DNA from: a virus
DNA length: 20,079 nucleotides
Reading direction: 5' to 3' (one strand)
Virus record (IMG/VR): IMGVR_UViG_3300017783_000279
Coordinates: 1 to 20,079 of that record
In this document: positions 10,904 through 19,684 of the stretch, piece by piece
Position numbering within the stretch: position 1 is the first letter of the stretch
Layout: the number at the start of each line of letters is the position of its first letter
The notes under the pieces: model-generated
Told to the model about the DNA's origin: nothing
Databases searched by the model: none
The model's input: only the letters and a program-made list of their open reading frames with translations
Position numbers and translations under genes: made by a program

Positions 10904-13696
10904 TTATTTAGGAATGTACTTTGGTTTAGATTCTGGTGAATTTGGGTTCCATGCTTGGAAGTGCATCCAATCGTAATTTTTTGCTCTACCTAAACTATAC
11001 CATCCGTTCTGTTCAAATATATCTATCATATCCTGATATTCTTGCCTGGAGAATAAAGCGTCTGGTGATTTTGTTTTTAAAGCATTTTTTGATGCATATA
11101 AATCTATTGCAATACCCCATGAATGTAAGCTCCAAGTTGTACCACCTCTTTTAGCTCTTTTATTATATACTCCACTATAAATATTTATGCCTAATTTGTT
11201 TATTTTTTCTTTCCCGTATTTGTCTAGTATACCTTGTAGCGCTGATCTCAAGCTAGATGCTACACCTTTATGTACTCCTCTAATAGTTTTTACAGGTTCA
11301 CCATCATACTTTAAATTAAATCCTTTAGGAACAGACATTGTAGCAAAATTACTTTTATCCCCCGGTTTACCGTATTTATCTCTTACGTTTTCTTGAGTCT
11401 TGCTATTATCTAGTATTTCTTGAGATTCTTTTCTTCTTTTTTCTTTTTGTTTTTCTATCTTTTCTTGAGCAGCCAAAAATGAAGCATCAGGTTCTTCGGT
11501 TGCAGGTAAATTGAACATTTTAGTCGAAATATCTGTTACCCATCTATTATCTTGACCTATATTATCAGTTATATTAGTAATTATAAACCCAACTCTATTA
11601 TGATACCTTGAAGGTAGTATGTTATTTTGTACTTTAAACGCTTCACCTACTTTTAATCCGCTGATTCCATCCATGGTAAAAGAAAGATTCAAAGGTATAA
11701 TACCACTATATGATGCTTTAGTTCCTGATTGTCTTTTTACTCTTTGACTATGTTTATAAGCTAATGATGTATATTCCCTGTGGTTAGCAGAACAGTTTCT
11801 TAAAGCATCTCTATCGTATTTTTTGTCACTACTATATACTCTATAGATATCAGCTACTTTATTACCGTAATCTATAGCTTGTTCATTTAATTTTTCTTGA
11901 TCACTAGCTGTATCATCGGAGCTTTTCTTTTCTGCTGGTCCGGTTTTAAGTTTTTCTTTGTATCTATCCCTAACGCCATCATTATATCTTGCTATACCGT
12001 CCAAAGCTTTATCGTCCCCAGAAACTGCTGCAGAAATAGCTAACATATTTGTAAGTTCTCCAGATATTTTGGATTCTAATTGAAAGTTACTTACTAAGCT
12101 TCCTAATCCAACTAGGTCTAATGTAGTAAACTCATCACCGCTTACTTTTTCTGGGTCGTAAAAGTTTCTATCAATGACTCTCCATTCATTTAATTTCTTA
12201 TCTAAATCTAAATCAAGTTTATTTATAGCTCCTAAATTAGTATTTATATCACTTAATATTTTTTTTAAGAACGAAAATACATTAGCTTCTTGACTAGAAT
12301 TATCTACTTCAGCTTCTACGTAACCTTTACAGATATCTTCTAAATGTTTTACGTTTAACATTATTCCGTAAATATCATCAACTTCACCTTTTGCAGTTGA
12401 CACTTCGTTAGGTAGTACATCTCCATAAAGTTCTTTATCTGATAAGTATACGCCCTTTTCTGCTTTATGTTTTAACATACATATTCCTGGGTCTAAAGCA
12501 ACGTGGCTAGGAAATGTAATAAATGTACTGGATAATGAAGTACCGTAGTTATTTTCTCTAAATACTGTTTCTTTTTCTTTATCTTCATTTTCAGGTATGA
12601 GAAAAGCGTTAACTAGCCCCAGTAGGGTACCCAGAGTAATATATACAAATTTATTTTCAAAACTTTCACCAGGAATGTATTCTGCGTCTCCTTCTACGAC
12701 CGGGTCTTCAAACCCAGCTACATTAAACCTATTGCTAACAGTTATTAAGTACCCTATCTCATCGATATTTTGAGCACCTTTGATAAACTGCTTCATAAAT
12801 TTTTTATTATCCCCTTTAATTCTCATAGCTTTGAGTGCTTTTAAAAGAGTAAAATCTGAAGCTTTAGTTGAATCAGACTTAACATACTCATCTAATCCAC
12901 TTTCTTTATTATCAGTCATTAAAAGTTTTAAGGATTCTACTATTTCTCCTTTAGCTTGTATCTGAACACTGCAGTCAAAGCCTCCGTCGTTGTTATATGA
13001 CCAGCTAAAGTTAATAATTCTACCTAGAAATGCGCTATAGTTGTAGTCTGTACTTTCTTCTAATTCGACTATTTCTTGTTCCAGTTGTGAAAGTTTTTTT
13101 GACTTATCTAAATATTTTTGAGCTAAACTATTTTGAAAAGTTAATACTTCACTACTTTTTGAATCATAATAAGCAGCAGAACCGTATTCAACAAGTACGT
13201 TAAACCCAGGTCTAAAGTAAAGCTGTTCAGCAGCATCTAACTGCTCTAAGGACCAAACTTGAAATCCTATGTCCGCTTTTTTTAACGTACCGTAAGCTCC
13301 CTGAGATTGTACTGTAAAACTTGTAATCCCCATCATAGGTCTAAACCCTGATTGTGAACTATAATCGTATCCGCTGTCGTTTTCTAAAAAATTACCAAGA
13401 AGCCTAAGACCTTCTCTATTTTTAAATCCAGTAAATTCTCCTTTATCGTTTTTTTGTTTTTTTAAAACACCGCCTTGCAAAACAAAATTAGAAGCTAATT
13501 CTTCAGTTAATTCTTCTTTATCTGGAGATTCTTTAGTATTTACAGAAGATACAACCCTTATCCATGCTCCTTTATTATTTAAAAGCATAGTATTATCAAC
13601 AAGTCTATTATTATCAACTAAAAGTGCTTTTCTTGCATTTAATTGATCAACGACTTTTCTGTCAATTGGTATTCCAAATGCTTTTCCTGTTGACAT
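10904..13696 (-). CDS. baseplate hub-type protein with C-terminal M15 peptidase domain
   Basis: This large, 930-aa protein has a structural N-terminal part that reads like a tail hub subunit: GITSFTVQSQGAYGTL and FRPGFNVLVEYGSAA early, and LNLSFTMDGISGLKVGEAF followed by RVGFIITNITDNI later. A charged linker (about 745-775, EKQKEKRRKESQEI) leads to a D-Ala-D-Ala carboxypeptidase/VanY-like (M15) domain at about 790-930. Its metal site is H858 and D865 in SLHSWGIAID and H912 in DWMHF. The domain would cut peptidoglycan cross-links as the tail tip crosses the cell wall, the task of the lysozyme domain of T4 gp5. Its start overlaps the stop codon of the LysM protein (TAATG). The hub assignment is inferred; the peptidase motifs are clear. 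Confidence 0.82.
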   Translation of the reverse strand: MSTGKAFGIPIDRKVVDQLNARKALLVDNNRLVDNTMLLNNKGAWIRVVSSVNTKESPDKEELTEELASNFVLQGGVLKKQKNDKGEFTGFKNREGLRLLGNFLENDSGYDYSSQSGFRPMMGITSFTVQSQGAYGTLKKADIGFQVWSLEQLDAAEQLYFRPGFNVLVEYGSAAYYDSKSSEVLTFQNSLAQKYLDKSKKLSQLEQEIVELEESTDYNYSAFLGRIINFSWSYNNDGGFDCSVQIQAKGEIVESLKLLMTDNKESGLDEYVKSDSTKASDFTLLKALKAMRIKGDNKKFMKQFIKGAQNIDEIGYLITVSNRFNVAGFEDPVVEGDAEYIPGESFENKFVYITLGTLLGLVNAFLIPENEDKEKETVFRENNYGTSLSSTFITFPSHVALDPGICMLKHKAEKGVYLSDKELYGDVLPNEVSTAKGEVDDIYGIMLNVKHLEDICKGYVEAEVDNSSQEANVFSFLKKILSDINTNLGAINKLDLDLDKKLNEWRVIDRNFYDPEKVSGDEFTTLDLVGLGSLVSNFQLESKISGELTNMLAISAAVSGDDKALDGIARYNDGVRDRYKEKLKTGPAEKKSSDDTASDQEKLNEQAIDYGNKVADIYRVYSSDKKYDRDALRNCSANHREYTSLAYKHSQRVKRQSGTKASYSGIIPLNLSFTMDGISGLKVGEAFKVQNNILPSRYHNRVGFIITNITDNIGQDNRWVTDISTKMFNLPATEEPDASFLAAQEKIEKQKEKRRKESQEILDNSKTQENVRDKYGKPGDKSNFATMSVPKGFNLKYDGEPVKTIRGVHKGVASSLRSALQGILDKYGKEKINKLGINIYSGVYNKRAKRGGTTWSLHSWGIAIDLYASKNALKTKSPDALFSRQEYQDMIDIFEQNGWYSLGRAKNYDWMHFQAWNPNSPESKPKYIPK

Positions 13697-15695: not shown

Positions 15696-18065
15696 TTAAT
15701 TGCTAAGTTTAGAGTTTAGTACTAATGTTTGACCGACTTTACTTCCGTCTAAGTATACATCTCCTCCACTTTTGACAAGACTAATTAATTCTTCGAGTAA
15801 TGCTTCAACATTTCCTCCTAACTTAGTACCGCCTGCCATGGTAATTGTATCTTCTCCGAGAGGTTTAATTGTAAAGTCCGATACTGGCATTTCTTGACTT
15901 CTAGATGTTGCTTTACTAATATCTCTAGCTGCTAATCCGGCGTCTATTGCGACTGATGCAGCTGTTCCTAACCCTGGTATAGTACTTGCTACTCCAGATG
16001 CTAATTCTCCTGCAGCGCCCAACCAATCTCCTTGAGATGCTCTACTTATTGCAAATCCTACTCCTGCTAATGCCCCTAAGATAGGAATTTTTTTAAGGAG
16101 AGATTTTCCTACTGCCTTAGCACCTAATTTACCGGCTTGTTTACCTAGGCTCTTACCAGCAGCTCCTCCACCTTTTTTTAGGAGGGCATCTTTTGCTGCT
16201 TTTCCTCCAAAGCCTGCGGCTATTTGTTTTGCGCTTAGTTTACCAGCGTTTTTTGTTACTGTTGATAAACCTTTACTAGACTTCATTAAACCTTTTATAC
16301 CTTTACTTGCTCTAGATATTCCTTTATATAATTTAGGTCCTATTGCCACTCCAGCTAGTAGAAGTACTAGAAGTTTAACTTCCTTAATCAGATTCTGCAT
16401 AACATTAGTTATGTTGGCAAAAGGATTACCTTCCCCTGTTAAATCCTGGGATAATTTACTCATAGCAGAAGCCATAGTATCACCCATTTTTTCTTGAGCA
16501 ATTGCCATTGCTTTTGCAGCAGTTATGGATGCTTCTTTATCTGCTAATTCATCTTTACCTAATTCCCTTAATGCTTCTTCTTTAGACATTCCTTTTTTCA
16601 TCAAGGCATCTATCTGTTGTTTGGTGTTGAGTGATGCTAAATCCTGTATACCGGTTTCTTCAGCTACTTTCTTTAGAGCTTCTTGCTGCATCAAAGTACC
16701 TGCTAATTCATCTCTATTCATACCTAGAGATTTAGCTAAAGCATTTTGCTGAAGAACGTTCAGGTCGGCAAACTCTGCTGCTGTTCCCACATTCTTAGCT
16801 AACTCTTCTGCTAATGTTACTTGGTCGCCGGCTAATGCTGCTGATCTAGCTTTATCTAAATTTAAATTTCTTCCTAGCAGCAATTCTGCTTCCATTTCTG
16901 CTGCAATTGATGATTCGAAATCTAAAAATCCTTCTGCGGAGGAATTTAACTGGGACATAGATAATCCAAGCTTTCTTGCATTAAATGCTGCTTTAGCAAC
17001 TCCTCCTGGGAATTTTTGAGTAGTTAAAAGTGTAGCTTTAGACATTGATCCGATATCTTTCATGACATCTTGATACCTAATACTTTCTTTAGTACCAGCA
17101 TCCATAGCTTTTAAGGTACCTATCATTGAGTTAGTTTGATTTTTAAACGAACCTTCTGATAATGCAGACATTCTATATAAGTTTCCTGCTTCATCAGCAG
17201 AAAGACCTAATTTCGTAGTCATTTTAGAAACTACTTTTGCAGTATCTGTACTTGCAATTGCTCCTGTTCCTAATGCTTCAGATAAAGCAAATGTTGCTTC
17301 TCTTGCCTCACGAGCTGTAACTAACGTACCTTCAAGAGCATCTATTTGATCGCGGTTAAATTTAGCTGCTTGGTTTGAAGTAATATTAAAAGTTTTTCTT
17401 ACGTCTTGAGTAGCTTCATCAAATCGGTTTAAACCATCCACTGCTGTAACAAACAATGCTTTTCCTATAAGGCTAGTTATAGACATTAAACTAGCGCCTA
17501 TACCCTTCATACCGCTTCCTGTTTCAGCTACAGCATCTCTTCCTGCTTTGGCAGCCTTACCGAAATCTCCAAATAATTTATTAATTAGAGGTATATCTTT
17601 TACAAATTCATCCGCCTTATCAAAAAACTTAACCGTATTATCTATTTTGCGATAAGATTTAAGTAACTTATTAGCTTCTTTTGTTAGTTCTTTAGAAGCC
17701 TGTAATTGATCATTAAGTAAAATTGCTTTAGACTGATCAGATTTTAATTGTGATTGTGAAAGTTTATCTATTTCTCTGGCAAGGCTGGTTTGTCCTTCTA
17801 GTGCTTTTTTATAAGTTTCAGTAAATTTAGCTGATTTGCTTTTAGATTTTAGATCAGAAGCAGAAAAAGTAGAAAGTCTTTTTGCTAAATCAACATTCTC
17901 TTGACCTAGCTTAGTATAGTAGTCCATTTCCCCAGCAGTTTCGCCAGTTTCTTTACCTACTTCTTTCATAGCAGCTTTCATCTGCTTTAATATATCAACA
18001 AACTCTGATCCTGCTTTACGCAGTTCATTCATTTCGTCTATTCTATCTTTAGGTTTGTCAGCCAT
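15696..18065 (-). CDS. 29: tail tape measure protein
   Basis: The 789-aa protein is long, helical and Ala/Lys-rich, which fits the ruler that sets tail length. The N-terminal 150 residues are predicted coiled coil (AAMKEVGKETGETAGE, ALEGQTSLAREIDKL). Hydrophobic segments lie at about 190-210, 562-577 (VKLLVLLLAGVAIGP) and 659-674 (IPILGALAGVGFAIS); such segments in tape measures may form a membrane channel during DNA ejection. The end carries GGDVYLDGSKVGQTL, a motif common at tape measure C-termini. It follows the gp26-like/overlapping ORF pair, the usual place after tail assembly chaperones. T4 gp29 is 590 aa, so this tail may be longer. A candidate promoter lies 16 bp before the ATG. Confidence 0.9.
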   Translation of the reverse strand: MADKPKDRIDEMNELRKAGSEFVDILKQMKAAMKEVGKETGETAGEMDYYTKLGQENVDLAKRLSTFSASDLKSKSKSAKFTETYKKALEGQTSLAREIDKLSQSQLKSDQSKAILLNDQLQASKELTKEANKLLKSYRKIDNTVKFFDKADEFVKDIPLINKLFGDFGKAAKAGRDAVAETGSGMKGIGASLMSITSLIGKALFVTAVDGLNRFDEATQDVRKTFNITSNQAAKFNRDQIDALEGTLVTAREAREATFALSEALGTGAIASTDTAKVVSKMTTKLGLSADEAGNLYRMSALSEGSFKNQTNSMIGTLKAMDAGTKESIRYQDVMKDIGSMSKATLLTTQKFPGGVAKAAFNARKLGLSMSQLNSSAEGFLDFESSIAAEMEAELLLGRNLNLDKARSAALAGDQVTLAEELAKNVGTAAEFADLNVLQQNALAKSLGMNRDELAGTLMQQEALKKVAEETGIQDLASLNTKQQIDALMKKGMSKEEALRELGKDELADKEASITAAKAMAIAQEKMGDTMASAMSKLSQDLTGEGNPFANITNVMQNLIKEVKLLVLLLAGVAIGPKLYKGISRASKGIKGLMKSSKGLSTVTKNAGKLSAKQIAAGFGGKAAKDALLKKGGGAAGKSLGKQAGKLGAKAVGKSLLKKIPILGALAGVGFAISRASQGDWLGAAGELASGVASTIPGLGTAASVAIDAGLAARDISKATSRSQEMPVSDFTIKPLGEDTITMAGGTKLGGNVEALLEELISLVKSGGDVYLDGSKVGQTLVLNSKLSN

Positions 18066-18091: not shown

Positions 18092-18118
18092 TAAGGCCTC
18101 TATTATTTAGAAGCCTTA
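18092..18118 (-). terminator. hairpin at the end of the gp51-position ORF
   Basis: The minus strand reads TAAGGCTTCTA, loop AATAA, TAGAGGCCTTA: an 11-bp stem with one G-U pair and a 5-nt loop. The ORF's TAA stop lies in the loop. It is followed by AACTATTTATAG rather than a T run, so termination would be weak. It may act as a processing or mRNA-stabilising hairpin just upstream of the tape measure promoter. Confidence 0.5.
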
Positions 18119-18405
18119 GTTACAAAAGTAGGTCTTTTAATTTTACTTTGATTTGAAGTTGCCTTAGTTTGTTTAGAAGCTTGTTGTGTTATTTCAGCTT
18201 CTTTATTAAAATGGTCTTGTATTTTATTGAAAGTGAACTTTCTTAACCAGATTGGCATATTATATACGGTATACCAATCAAAACCACCGTTACCGTGAAA
18301 TACTATGTCGTGTATTTTAGAGAATAGTTTTGCCCTATATTCAGAGGTCAGGCCAAAAAAACTTAAGCGTGACGGGTACCTCGATGTCCTCCTGGCCACC
18401 GTCAA
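18103..18405 (-). CDS. ORF overlapping the gp26-like gene; probable frameshift extension (gp51-position tail assembly protein)
   Basis: The conserved-looking part starts at FFGLTSEYRAKLF and continues through HDIVFHGNGGFDWYTVYNMPIWLRKFTFNKI; the last 30 residues are a Lys/Gln/Thr-rich tail. The frame is open only from 18411 and has no ATG before residue 50. The listed start is a TTG at 18405, and a GTG at 18399 is the only other usual start. Neither has a ribosome-binding site. The ORF overlaps the gp26-like gene by 65 bp in the +1 frame and shares the T7 run at 18355-18361. The position, between gp26 and the tape measure, matches T4 gene 51 and the T segment of lambda G/GT. It is most likely translated as an extension of gp26 after frameshifting. 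Confidence 0.65.
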   Translation of the reverse strand: MTVARRTSRYPSRLSFFGLTSEYRAKLFSKIHDIVFHGNGGFDWYTVYNMPIWLRKFTFNKIQDHFNKEAEITQQASKQTKATSNQSKIKRPTFVTKASK

Positions 18406-19084
18406 CGGTATCTACAGTAGTCACCATATTAATATCAGGTGAAACTTCTATATATTTTTTTCTTAAAGCTCTCGCATCTTTAGCTAATAGGTAATTATCT
18501 ACGAAATTACGAATATCTTTTTTCTCTGTTAGACCGTTAACAGAAGTAATCATATGTTTTAAACGAGTTGAGCTACCAGCATCAGATTTTTTATCTATTT
18601 TTTGTAATCCTATTACTTCTCTATCAATTGCTTTTTCATCACCGTGAGTTAGTAGTTTAAAAGTAATCGTATTGTCAGTAGACGGTAGTACAAACACAAA
18701 TTCGTTTTTTCCGTCTTTCACTAATTTTTTATCTAAATAAGTACTTTCTAATGTTGAAAGGTCTACAGTATAGCTCTCACCATCATAATTAATATCGTAG
18801 TCTTTACCGTATGATAATACTCTTGCTGCAACCATTATAGCATTTTTATCTCCTAGTAGTAACTGGTTAAAATCTATAGTTTTATCAACTATTAAAGATT
18901 TTAATAACCTATCTACCGCTGTTCCGTCTCTAAGGTAGTTTTGATTAGTAAGTATATCTTCTTCTCTAGCAGTCATATATTTCATTTCAACTGTTCCACT
19001 AGATAATGGAGATTCTTCTGGATAAAGTAAACCTTTTGAGGGTAAATCTACTGATTCAGTAGGTAGTTTAAATTTTGATTCCAT
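18341..19084 (-). CDS. 26: gp26-like baseplate hub/tail assembly protein
   Basis: This 247-aa protein resembles the gp26 baseplate family of T4-like phages. The N-terminus FKLPTESVDLPSKGLLYPE is the family signature, followed by GTVEMKYMTAREEDILTNQNYL. The middle holds LLLGDKNAIMVAARVLSYG and a FVLPSTDNTITFKLLTHGDE segment; the end is VTLKFFWPDL. I chose the ATG at 19084 because homology starts there; a longer frame reaches 19150 but would run into the terminator and lacks family sequence. T4 gp26 is 208 aa. It precedes the tape measure gene, where tail assembly chaperones are encoded in other phages. About 18371-18410 its DNA is over 60% GC, unlike its neighbours. Confidence 0.85.
   Translation of the reverse strand: MESKFKLPTESVDLPSKGLLYPEESPLSSGTVEMKYMTAREEDILTNQNYLRDGTAVDRLLKSLIVDKTIDFNQLLLGDKNAIMVAARVLSYGKDYDINYDGESYTVDLSTLESTYLDKKLVKDGKNEFVFVLPSTDNTITFKLLTHGDEKAIDREVIGLQKIDKKSDAGSSTRLKHMITSVNGLTEKKDIRNFVDNYLLAKDARALRKKYIEVSPDINMVTTVDTVDGGQEDIEVPVTLKFFWPDL
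18355..18364 (-). promoter_or_regulatory. candidate programmed frameshift site (AAG TTT TTT TGG)
   Basis: In the gp26 frame the minus strand reads AAG TTT TTT TGG CCT GAC CTC TGA. Moving +1 after the second TTT lets tRNA-Phe re-pair with TTT and continues as GGC CTG ACC (FFGLTSEYR) into the overlapping ORF. A -2 shift, or polymerase slippage on the T7 run, would reach the same frame. The predicted fusion is about 326 aa (243 from gp26 plus 83). Confidence 0.55.
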
Positions 19085-19122: not shown

Positions 19123-19145
19123 TACGAAAAAAAAACTTTGGGACC

Positions 19146-19173
19146 AACAAAAAACCCGGAAAAAATCCGGGTT
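19146..19173 (-). terminator. rho-independent terminator after the tail tube gene
   Basis: The minus strand reads AACCCGGA, loop TTTTT, TCCGGGTT, then TTTTGTTGG: a perfect 8-bp stem with a GC core and a T run. It starts 25 bp after the gp19 stop. It is the clearest terminator in the window and would bound a highly expressed sheath/tube transcript. Confidence 0.88.
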
Positions 19174-19198
19174 AATGTTTTTAAGAGGCAGAAGTGTA

Positions 19199-19684
19199 TT
19201 AGTAATTTAATACGCAGTAGTCCATTGCTACTGTAATGCTGATTTCCACAGCTTCATCAGATGTCCAGTCGTACTGACCGAAGTCTCCGTTTGATAAGAT
19301 TGCACCTTTGATGATCCATTCTCCTACGATATCACCTACAGGTCCTAATATATTTAAAGTTAGATCCTTTTTATAGAAATCTGAATATCCAGCTCTACCT
19401 GTTACAGATTCGTATCCTTGTCTAGCCCATTCCATTACTGCTTGAGCTCCAGAAGGAGTTACTGGATCGTAAAGAGTCATGGTCATATCATCCCATTCTC
19501 TTTTTCCTCTAATTTTTCTATATGAATTGATGTGATCTAATTTGATAACGTTATCGGTGAAGGTAGGAGCTTTCACATTCTTTACCATAAAGGAAGGAAT
19601 ATTATCGATAAGCATCACAAATCTGTTCTGTACCTTTGGTTCAAAGGCTTTAAACATTATTTCGTTTGGATCTAATACTGCCAT
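19199..19684 (-). CDS. 19: tail tube protein
   Basis: This 161-aa protein, the length of T4 gp19 (163 aa), would stack as hexamers inside the sheath to make the DNA conduit. Family features are the N-terminal PNEIMFKAFEPKVQNRFVMLID, IPSFMVKNVKAPTF, RKIRGKREWDDMTMTLYDPV, AVMEWARQGYESVTGRAGYSD and the C-terminal WIIKGAILSNGDFGQYDW, followed by the DEAVEISITVAMDYC strand. It follows the sheath gene by 38 bp, where the TATTTATA box lies, and is closed by a strong terminator, which fits high-level late expression. ATG at 19684. Confidence 0.95.
   Translation of the reverse strand: MAVLDPNEIMFKAFEPKVQNRFVMLIDNIPSFMVKNVKAPTFTDNVIKLDHINSYRKIRGKREWDDMTMTLYDPVTPSGAQAVMEWARQGYESVTGRAGYSDFYKKDLTLNILGPVGDIVGEWIIKGAILSNGDFGQYDWTSDEAVEISITVAMDYCVLNY

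Follow-up and report, generated by a model that had tools for sequence, protein, structure and literature searches.

A 2016 review describes the G/GT frameshift of phage lambda, gives the roles of the two proteins and regards the shift as conserved among all long-tailed phages 'except T4' (PMC5009743). For T4, gp26 and gp51 are listed as hub assembly chaperones, gp51 being absent from the particle and of unknown function (PMC3004832). A comparison published in 2010 left two features of the family unexplained, namely a cyanophage gp51 of only ∼20% of the normal length and the missing gp51 of Aeh1 (PMC3037559). Vladimirov, Gautam and Davidson (2022, Virology 566:9-15) are cited for the two-gene solution of some T4-like phages (in PMC10885494) and for poly-T -1 signals in T4-like tail assembly chaperone (TAC) genes (in PMC12846349). 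As far as can be judged from these citing papers, the TAC identity, the T4 two-gene arrangement and the poly-T -1 signals have apparently been described already; a claim that the T4 duplication was unreported was accordingly dropped, as the 2022 work is cited for the T4 two-gene solution.

The gp26-like gene and its putative +1-frame extension

The window, that is, the whole stretch of 20,079 nucleotides analysed here (IMG/VR record IMGVR_UViG_3300017783_000279), comes from a T4-related marine phage and carries on its minus strand a gp26-like open reading frame (ORF) at 18341..19084, with an ATG at 19084 and a stop codon at 18343-18341, which encodes a protein of 247 aa (TAC-N, 'G' product). 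The N-domain of this protein matches Pfam PF12322 (T4 base plate protein) above the Pfam cut-off (E 4.2e-7; 30.3 bits, cut-off 24.5), and the protein also matches phrog_150 (baseplate hub; 3e-11). The 3' end of the ORF reads AAG TTT TTT TGG CCT GAC CTC TGA; the T7 run at 18355..18361 (minus strand), read TTT TTT T(GG), is the putative slip site, with the presumed P-site codon at 18358-18356. A downstream ORF, in the +1 frame and without an ATG ahead of its conserved core, as the initial annotation had stated, is open from 18411 and ends at 18103. The 65 bp overlap that had been given for it holds from the TTG at 18405; from 18411 the overlap is 71 bp. With one base skipped at T7, the conceptual read gives a predicted fusion of 326 aa (...VTLKFF-GLTSEYR...), which is the size that had been expected, and the entire recoded gene (TAC-NC, 'GT' product), supported by this read and by an alignment of 26 fusions, would span 18103..19084 (minus strand). 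Its part read after the shift (18103..18354; GLTSEYRAKLF..IHDIVFHGNGGFDWYTVYNMPIWLRKF..KASK) is the T domain, assigned by conservation and profile match.

The recoded gene is flanked on the same strand by a gp19-like tail tube gene directly upstream (19199..19684; phrog_4542 tail tube, 3.5e-23) and by a tape measure protein gene directly downstream (15696..18065; phrog_167 tail length tape measure, E 3.5e-4); a tape measure annotation is found at the equivalent position in the phages immuto and LIS04. The gene order tail tube - TAC - tape measure is that of lambda, in which a rare frameshift near the 3' end adds a T domain. The lambda shift is -1, whereas the downstream frame in the window is +1; by analogy, the window pair would work like G/GT and be its functional counterpart without being of the lambda type. 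In the interval that separates the tube gene from the gp26-like gene, a hairpin followed by T's (AACCCGGATTTTTTCCGGGTTTTTT) was observed at 19130-19175, at a place equivalent to that of an annotated rho-independent terminator in SP-15 (L084, 4418-4450); a terminator at this position would reduce the chaperone mRNA relative to the tube mRNA. Further along the window, positions 10904-13696 encode a baseplate-region protein of 930 aa with a C-terminal M15 peptidase domain (PF13539).

IMG/VR was scanned with the gp26-like gene, and 80 relatives (56-93% identity) were obtained and placed into 37 clusters below 90% amino acid identity. All 80 have TTT TTT T or TTT CTT T (TTT[T/C]TTT) directly before GG or AC, and in all 80 a +1 ORF runs across the gp26 stop. 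The alignment of junctions in relatives, which had been proposed as a check, thus confirmed that both the T-rich site and the frame relation are kept. The T domain (∼80 aa; FFGLTPEYR..FxQIHEIVFHGxGGYxWxTVYNMPIWLR in the +1-clade alignment of 26 fusions) was retained in every relative long enough to judge. By cluster, the slip codons read TTT TTT TGG CC[T/A] (32), TTT TTT TAC CC[A/T] (3) or TTT CTT TGG CCT (2); the first slip codon is therefore TTT in 37 of 37 clusters, and the second is TTT in 35 and CTT in two. Elsewhere in these genes, Phe is written as TTC at about 19% of codons (37 clusters), and the chance of an invariant TTT at either slip codon is near 4-5e-4 under the assumption of independent clusters, which are only partly independent. 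A further scan from Microcystis phage Mel-JY01 yielded a slip site (T-rich, YTTTTTT-type) and a +1 T domain in 79 of 79 scorable contigs; the one remaining contig, which ends near the gp26 stop, could not be scored. The arrangement of slip site and +1 ORF was confirmed to lie far above chance, with the reservation that contigs of one clade share kinship, so that counts do not equal independent trials. Most contigs of the relatives L358-L364 were binned together with genomes of Flavobacteriales, a hint that the phage of the window infects Bacteroidota.

The +1 arrangement is also present in named isolates: Flavobacterium phage immuto (TTT CTT TGG), Microcystis phage Mel-JY01 and Rhodothermus phage RM378 (both TTT TTT TGG), Bacillus phage SP-15 (TTT TTT CAC), Streptococcus phage GXN1 (TTC TTT CGT) and Listeria phage LIS04 (TTT TTT AGT). 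In the records of these isolates the T domain is absent, truncated or entered as a separate hypothetical protein. A +1 ORF at a divergent site (TTT CTA) occurs in huge phage LR756508. A single origin of the +1 mode was neither supported nor rejected by a tree test (AU p 0.48).

Direction of the proposed shift and possible stimulators

Reasoning from the sequences, a slip in the P site would allow UUU-U, CUU-U and UUU-C each to re-pair with UUU or UUC after a +1 shift; LIS04 is a weak case, as its shifted pairing (UUU to UUA) is imperfect. +1 ribosomal slippage fits the CTT-T variant, which speaks against both transcriptional slippage and a -2 shift. Independent initiation, a -2 shift, transcriptional slippage and assembly error were all considered and rejected.

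The best-surviving alternative is that the T domain is made as a separate protein, initiated inside or just after the gp26-like gene through a weak start or translational coupling. Such starts are conceivable from the TTG at 18405 in the window, from an ATG 2 nt past the gp26 stop in many cyanophages, and from TAATG-type overlaps in Vibrio K474, Cygsa01 and huge phage LR756511, the last of which has a separate overlapping gene in place of the +1 fusion. However, ATG, GTG and TTG are all absent between the point at which the +1 ORF opens and the conserved core in 17 of the 37 window-clade clusters, no ATG is present there in Aeh1, Melnitz, phiAS5, ACP17 and Desulfovibrio 7757, and the cyanophage ATG is buried within a conserved hairpin; an independent start would, moreover, leave the invariant slip site unexplained, and this reading is considered improbable.

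The initial annotation had allowed for a +1 or a -2 shift. Ribosomal slippage by -2 at the same T7 site would enter the identical downstream frame and is compatible with T7 and with LIS04, but CUU to UUC (immuto and its relatives) and, in the UUC UUU of GXN1, UUU to UCU give no re-pairing, whereas TTT CTT TGG and TTC TTT CGT pair after a +1 shift only, to UUU and UUC; the +1 shift is therefore favoured, and -2 slippage seems a little less probable even than a separate start. Transcriptional slippage, by which T7 would give rise to transcripts shortened by one base or lengthened by two, draws on the 7-base homopolymer of the window; the TTT CTT TGG relatives (including immuto) and GXN1 (TTC TTT C) interrupt the homopolymer, with no run >3 and the frame relation unchanged, which argues against this route and makes it very improbable. 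An error of sequencing or assembly with a single real frame, to which homopolymers are prone, is already refuted by the agreement of >150 contigs and several isolate genomes, and its probability is negligible. The comparative data thus lend strong support to the proposal of a G/GT-like pair, in which a programmed +1 shift fuses the gp26-like protein to the ORF that follows.

A Shine-Dalgarno (SD)-like AGGAGG was found at 18388..18393 (minus strand), 27-32 nt upstream of the slip site. In 28 of the 37 clusters an SD-like hexamer precedes the slip site by ≤45 nt, mostly by 28-33 nt, compared with 20 of 518 other windows in the same genes; third-position G+C climbs from about 0.2 to about 0.5 across the last 15 codons of the +1-clade genes. 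In several clusters a stop codon closes the +1 frame two codons before the slip site; where the frame is closed just before the site (L017, L019, L022, L028, L034), the hexamer is therefore not a start signal for the T domain. The +1 clade gave no sign of RNA structure downstream of the slip site (mean z -0.4) and no consensus structure upstream of it. The CUU-U P-site slip of part of the relatives is common to the +1 frameshift of bacterial prfB (RF2), but prfB has a stop codon in the A site and an SD at 3 nt, whereas the A-site codons of the +1 clade are UGG, UAC, CAC, CGU and AGU (UGG or UAC in the window clade) and an SD at prfB-type 3 nt spacing is absent; the window clade thus lacks both features of a prfB-type site. 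The prfB shift serves autoregulation, whereas the purpose in the window clade would be a product ratio. The distance of the SD-like hexamer from the slip site fits neither prfB nor dnaX.

A sister clade with a -1 site and the T4 gp26/gp51 pair

Cyanophages and phages related to them have the T domain in the -1 frame, preceded by T TTT TTN (U UUU UUN). This site was present in 80 of 80 cyanophage-like contigs and in 82 of 82 scorable Melnitz-like and phiAS5-like contigs, as well as in P-SSM5, S-PM2, LG08, RL38J1, phiAS5, Asswx_1, nt-1, ACP17, Melnitz, Desulfovibrio 7757, Atu_ph07 and PA5oct, and the heptamer is constant though the last slip codon alternates between Phe and Leu. Ackermannviridae (Det7, phiA8-29) have a weaker site. 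Contig L276, identical to Aeromonas phage Aeh1, carries a -1-frame T domain behind GAT TTT TTC without a start codon. The cyanophages have an SD-like GAGGG 10-14 nt upstream of the site (Glu is GAG there in 74 of 77 cases, and in 24% elsewhere) and a hairpin that starts about 5 nt downstream of it; of 53 distinct sequences, nearly all retain this hairpin (alifold -5.3, null mean -2.2; an equally low value in one of 40 shuffles). The start codon annotated for gp51 falls within this conserved hairpin, 3' of the gp26 stop (L097-L176). On this evidence, the fusion of KVP40-like phages, Aeh1 and the cyanophages would arise through a -1 slip at U UUU UUN. The short cyanophage 'gp51' (PMC3037559) therefore resembles the downstream ORF of the window in its homologous T domain and in its place directly after gp26, but it follows U UUU UUC in the -1 frame and is accompanied by the SD-like GAGGG and the downstream hairpin, whereas the window clade uses +1. 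That one chaperone family switched its shift direction, between -1 (U UUU UUN, SD 10-14 nt upstream, hairpin) and +1 (YUU-Y), with AGGAGG ∼30 nt upstream as a stimulator of a new type, is put forward as a tentative and rather doubtful suggestion.

T4 genes 26 and 51 are neighbours, as the initial annotation had stated, but they are divergently transcribed and therefore cannot be joined by frame in T4. Both T4 proteins match PF12322 over the full length of the domain; gp51 consists of PF12322 plus a T domain, and gp26 of PF12322 only. A T-domain model built from the -1 clade matched the last ∼50 aa of six of six Tevenvirinae-type gp51 proteins tested (E 1.6e-9 to 2e-4, 20,000 sequences) and gave no match to the gp26 proteins tested. 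In profile comparisons, the -1 T domain matched the T4 gp51 C-terminus with a probability of 98.1, and the +1 and -1 T domains matched each other with 89-91 (score 33.6, null maximum 18.7 in 60 column shuffles); compared directly, the +1 T domain and the T4 gp51 C-terminus matched weakly (23). By transitivity via the -1 clade, the T domain of the long form appears homologous to the C-terminus of T4 gp51. A tree of the domain common to these proteins places T4-type gp26 and gp51, each as a monophyletic group, together in one clade (100/97) next to the -1 lineages. From the T-domain matches and the tree it follows that the T4 counterpart of the fusion is gp51, that the counterpart of the short form is gp26, and that the downstream ORF of the window is equivalent to the end of gp51 only; its earlier assignment as gp51 stands for the C-terminal ∼50 aa, not for the whole protein. 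Judged from these sequences, T4 gp51 is a paralogue of gp26 with a T domain added by fusion, the gene having been duplicated in the T4 lineage.

Two predicted chaperone forms from one gene

One gene very probably gives rise to both forms of a T4-type TAC via +1 slippage. Most ribosomes would finish the gp26-like frame at its own stop and release the short form (247 aa). A minority would slip by +1 with the second slip codon, which is UUU or, in part of the relatives, CUU, in the P site, re-pair with UUU or UUC and read on through the +1 ORF, and the 326-aa fusion with its C-terminal T domain would be the rarer, long form. On the model of lambda G/GT, the short form would coat the tape measure protein, whose gene lies directly downstream, the long form would recruit through its T domain the tail tube subunits, whose gene lies directly upstream, and both forms would depart before the tail is complete.

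A model of the G-domain was confident (pLDDT 89, pTM 0.85), and its matches in BFVD were baseplate hub proteins of T4-type and jumbo phages. Among the PDB matches listed, those of highest probability were HK97 tail assembly chaperone chains (0.44 and 0.21); the Foldseek match to HK97 gp13 (2OB9; probability 0.44, TM 0.40 by target, E 1.9) is a weak hint, and no match of the G-domain model to PDB structures reached E 0.001. No PDB relatives were found by sequence search, and single-sequence AlphaFold of the 326-aa fusion gave no confident model (pLDDT 31).

The window system and T4-type gp26/gp51 share an N-domain (PF12322), a homologous C-terminal T domain and, as predicted, a short and a long form. 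T4 has the two forms as products of two divergent genes, other T4-like phages, according to the citing literature, use a poly-T -1 site, and the window would use +1. The view that gp26 and gp51 form a G/GT-like pair, offered as an explanation of the roles of these hub factors, is strongly supported for the pair; as an explanation it is not novel, a TAC role having already been proposed in the literature. The +1 clade and the explanation of the short cyanophage gp51 and of the 'missing' Aeh1 gp51 appear to be new, provisionally, in a literature search that lay mostly outside subscription journals. The 200 residues missing from cyanophage gp51 would come from gp26 via the shift, which would be of the -1 kind for cyanophages and Aeh1 and of the +1 kind for the window clade, with duplication in its place in T4. 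The annotation of many genomes, in which the T domain is missing, truncated or named as a separate gene, would be corrected, and a single protein family would offer -1, +1 and two-gene solutions for comparison at the bench.
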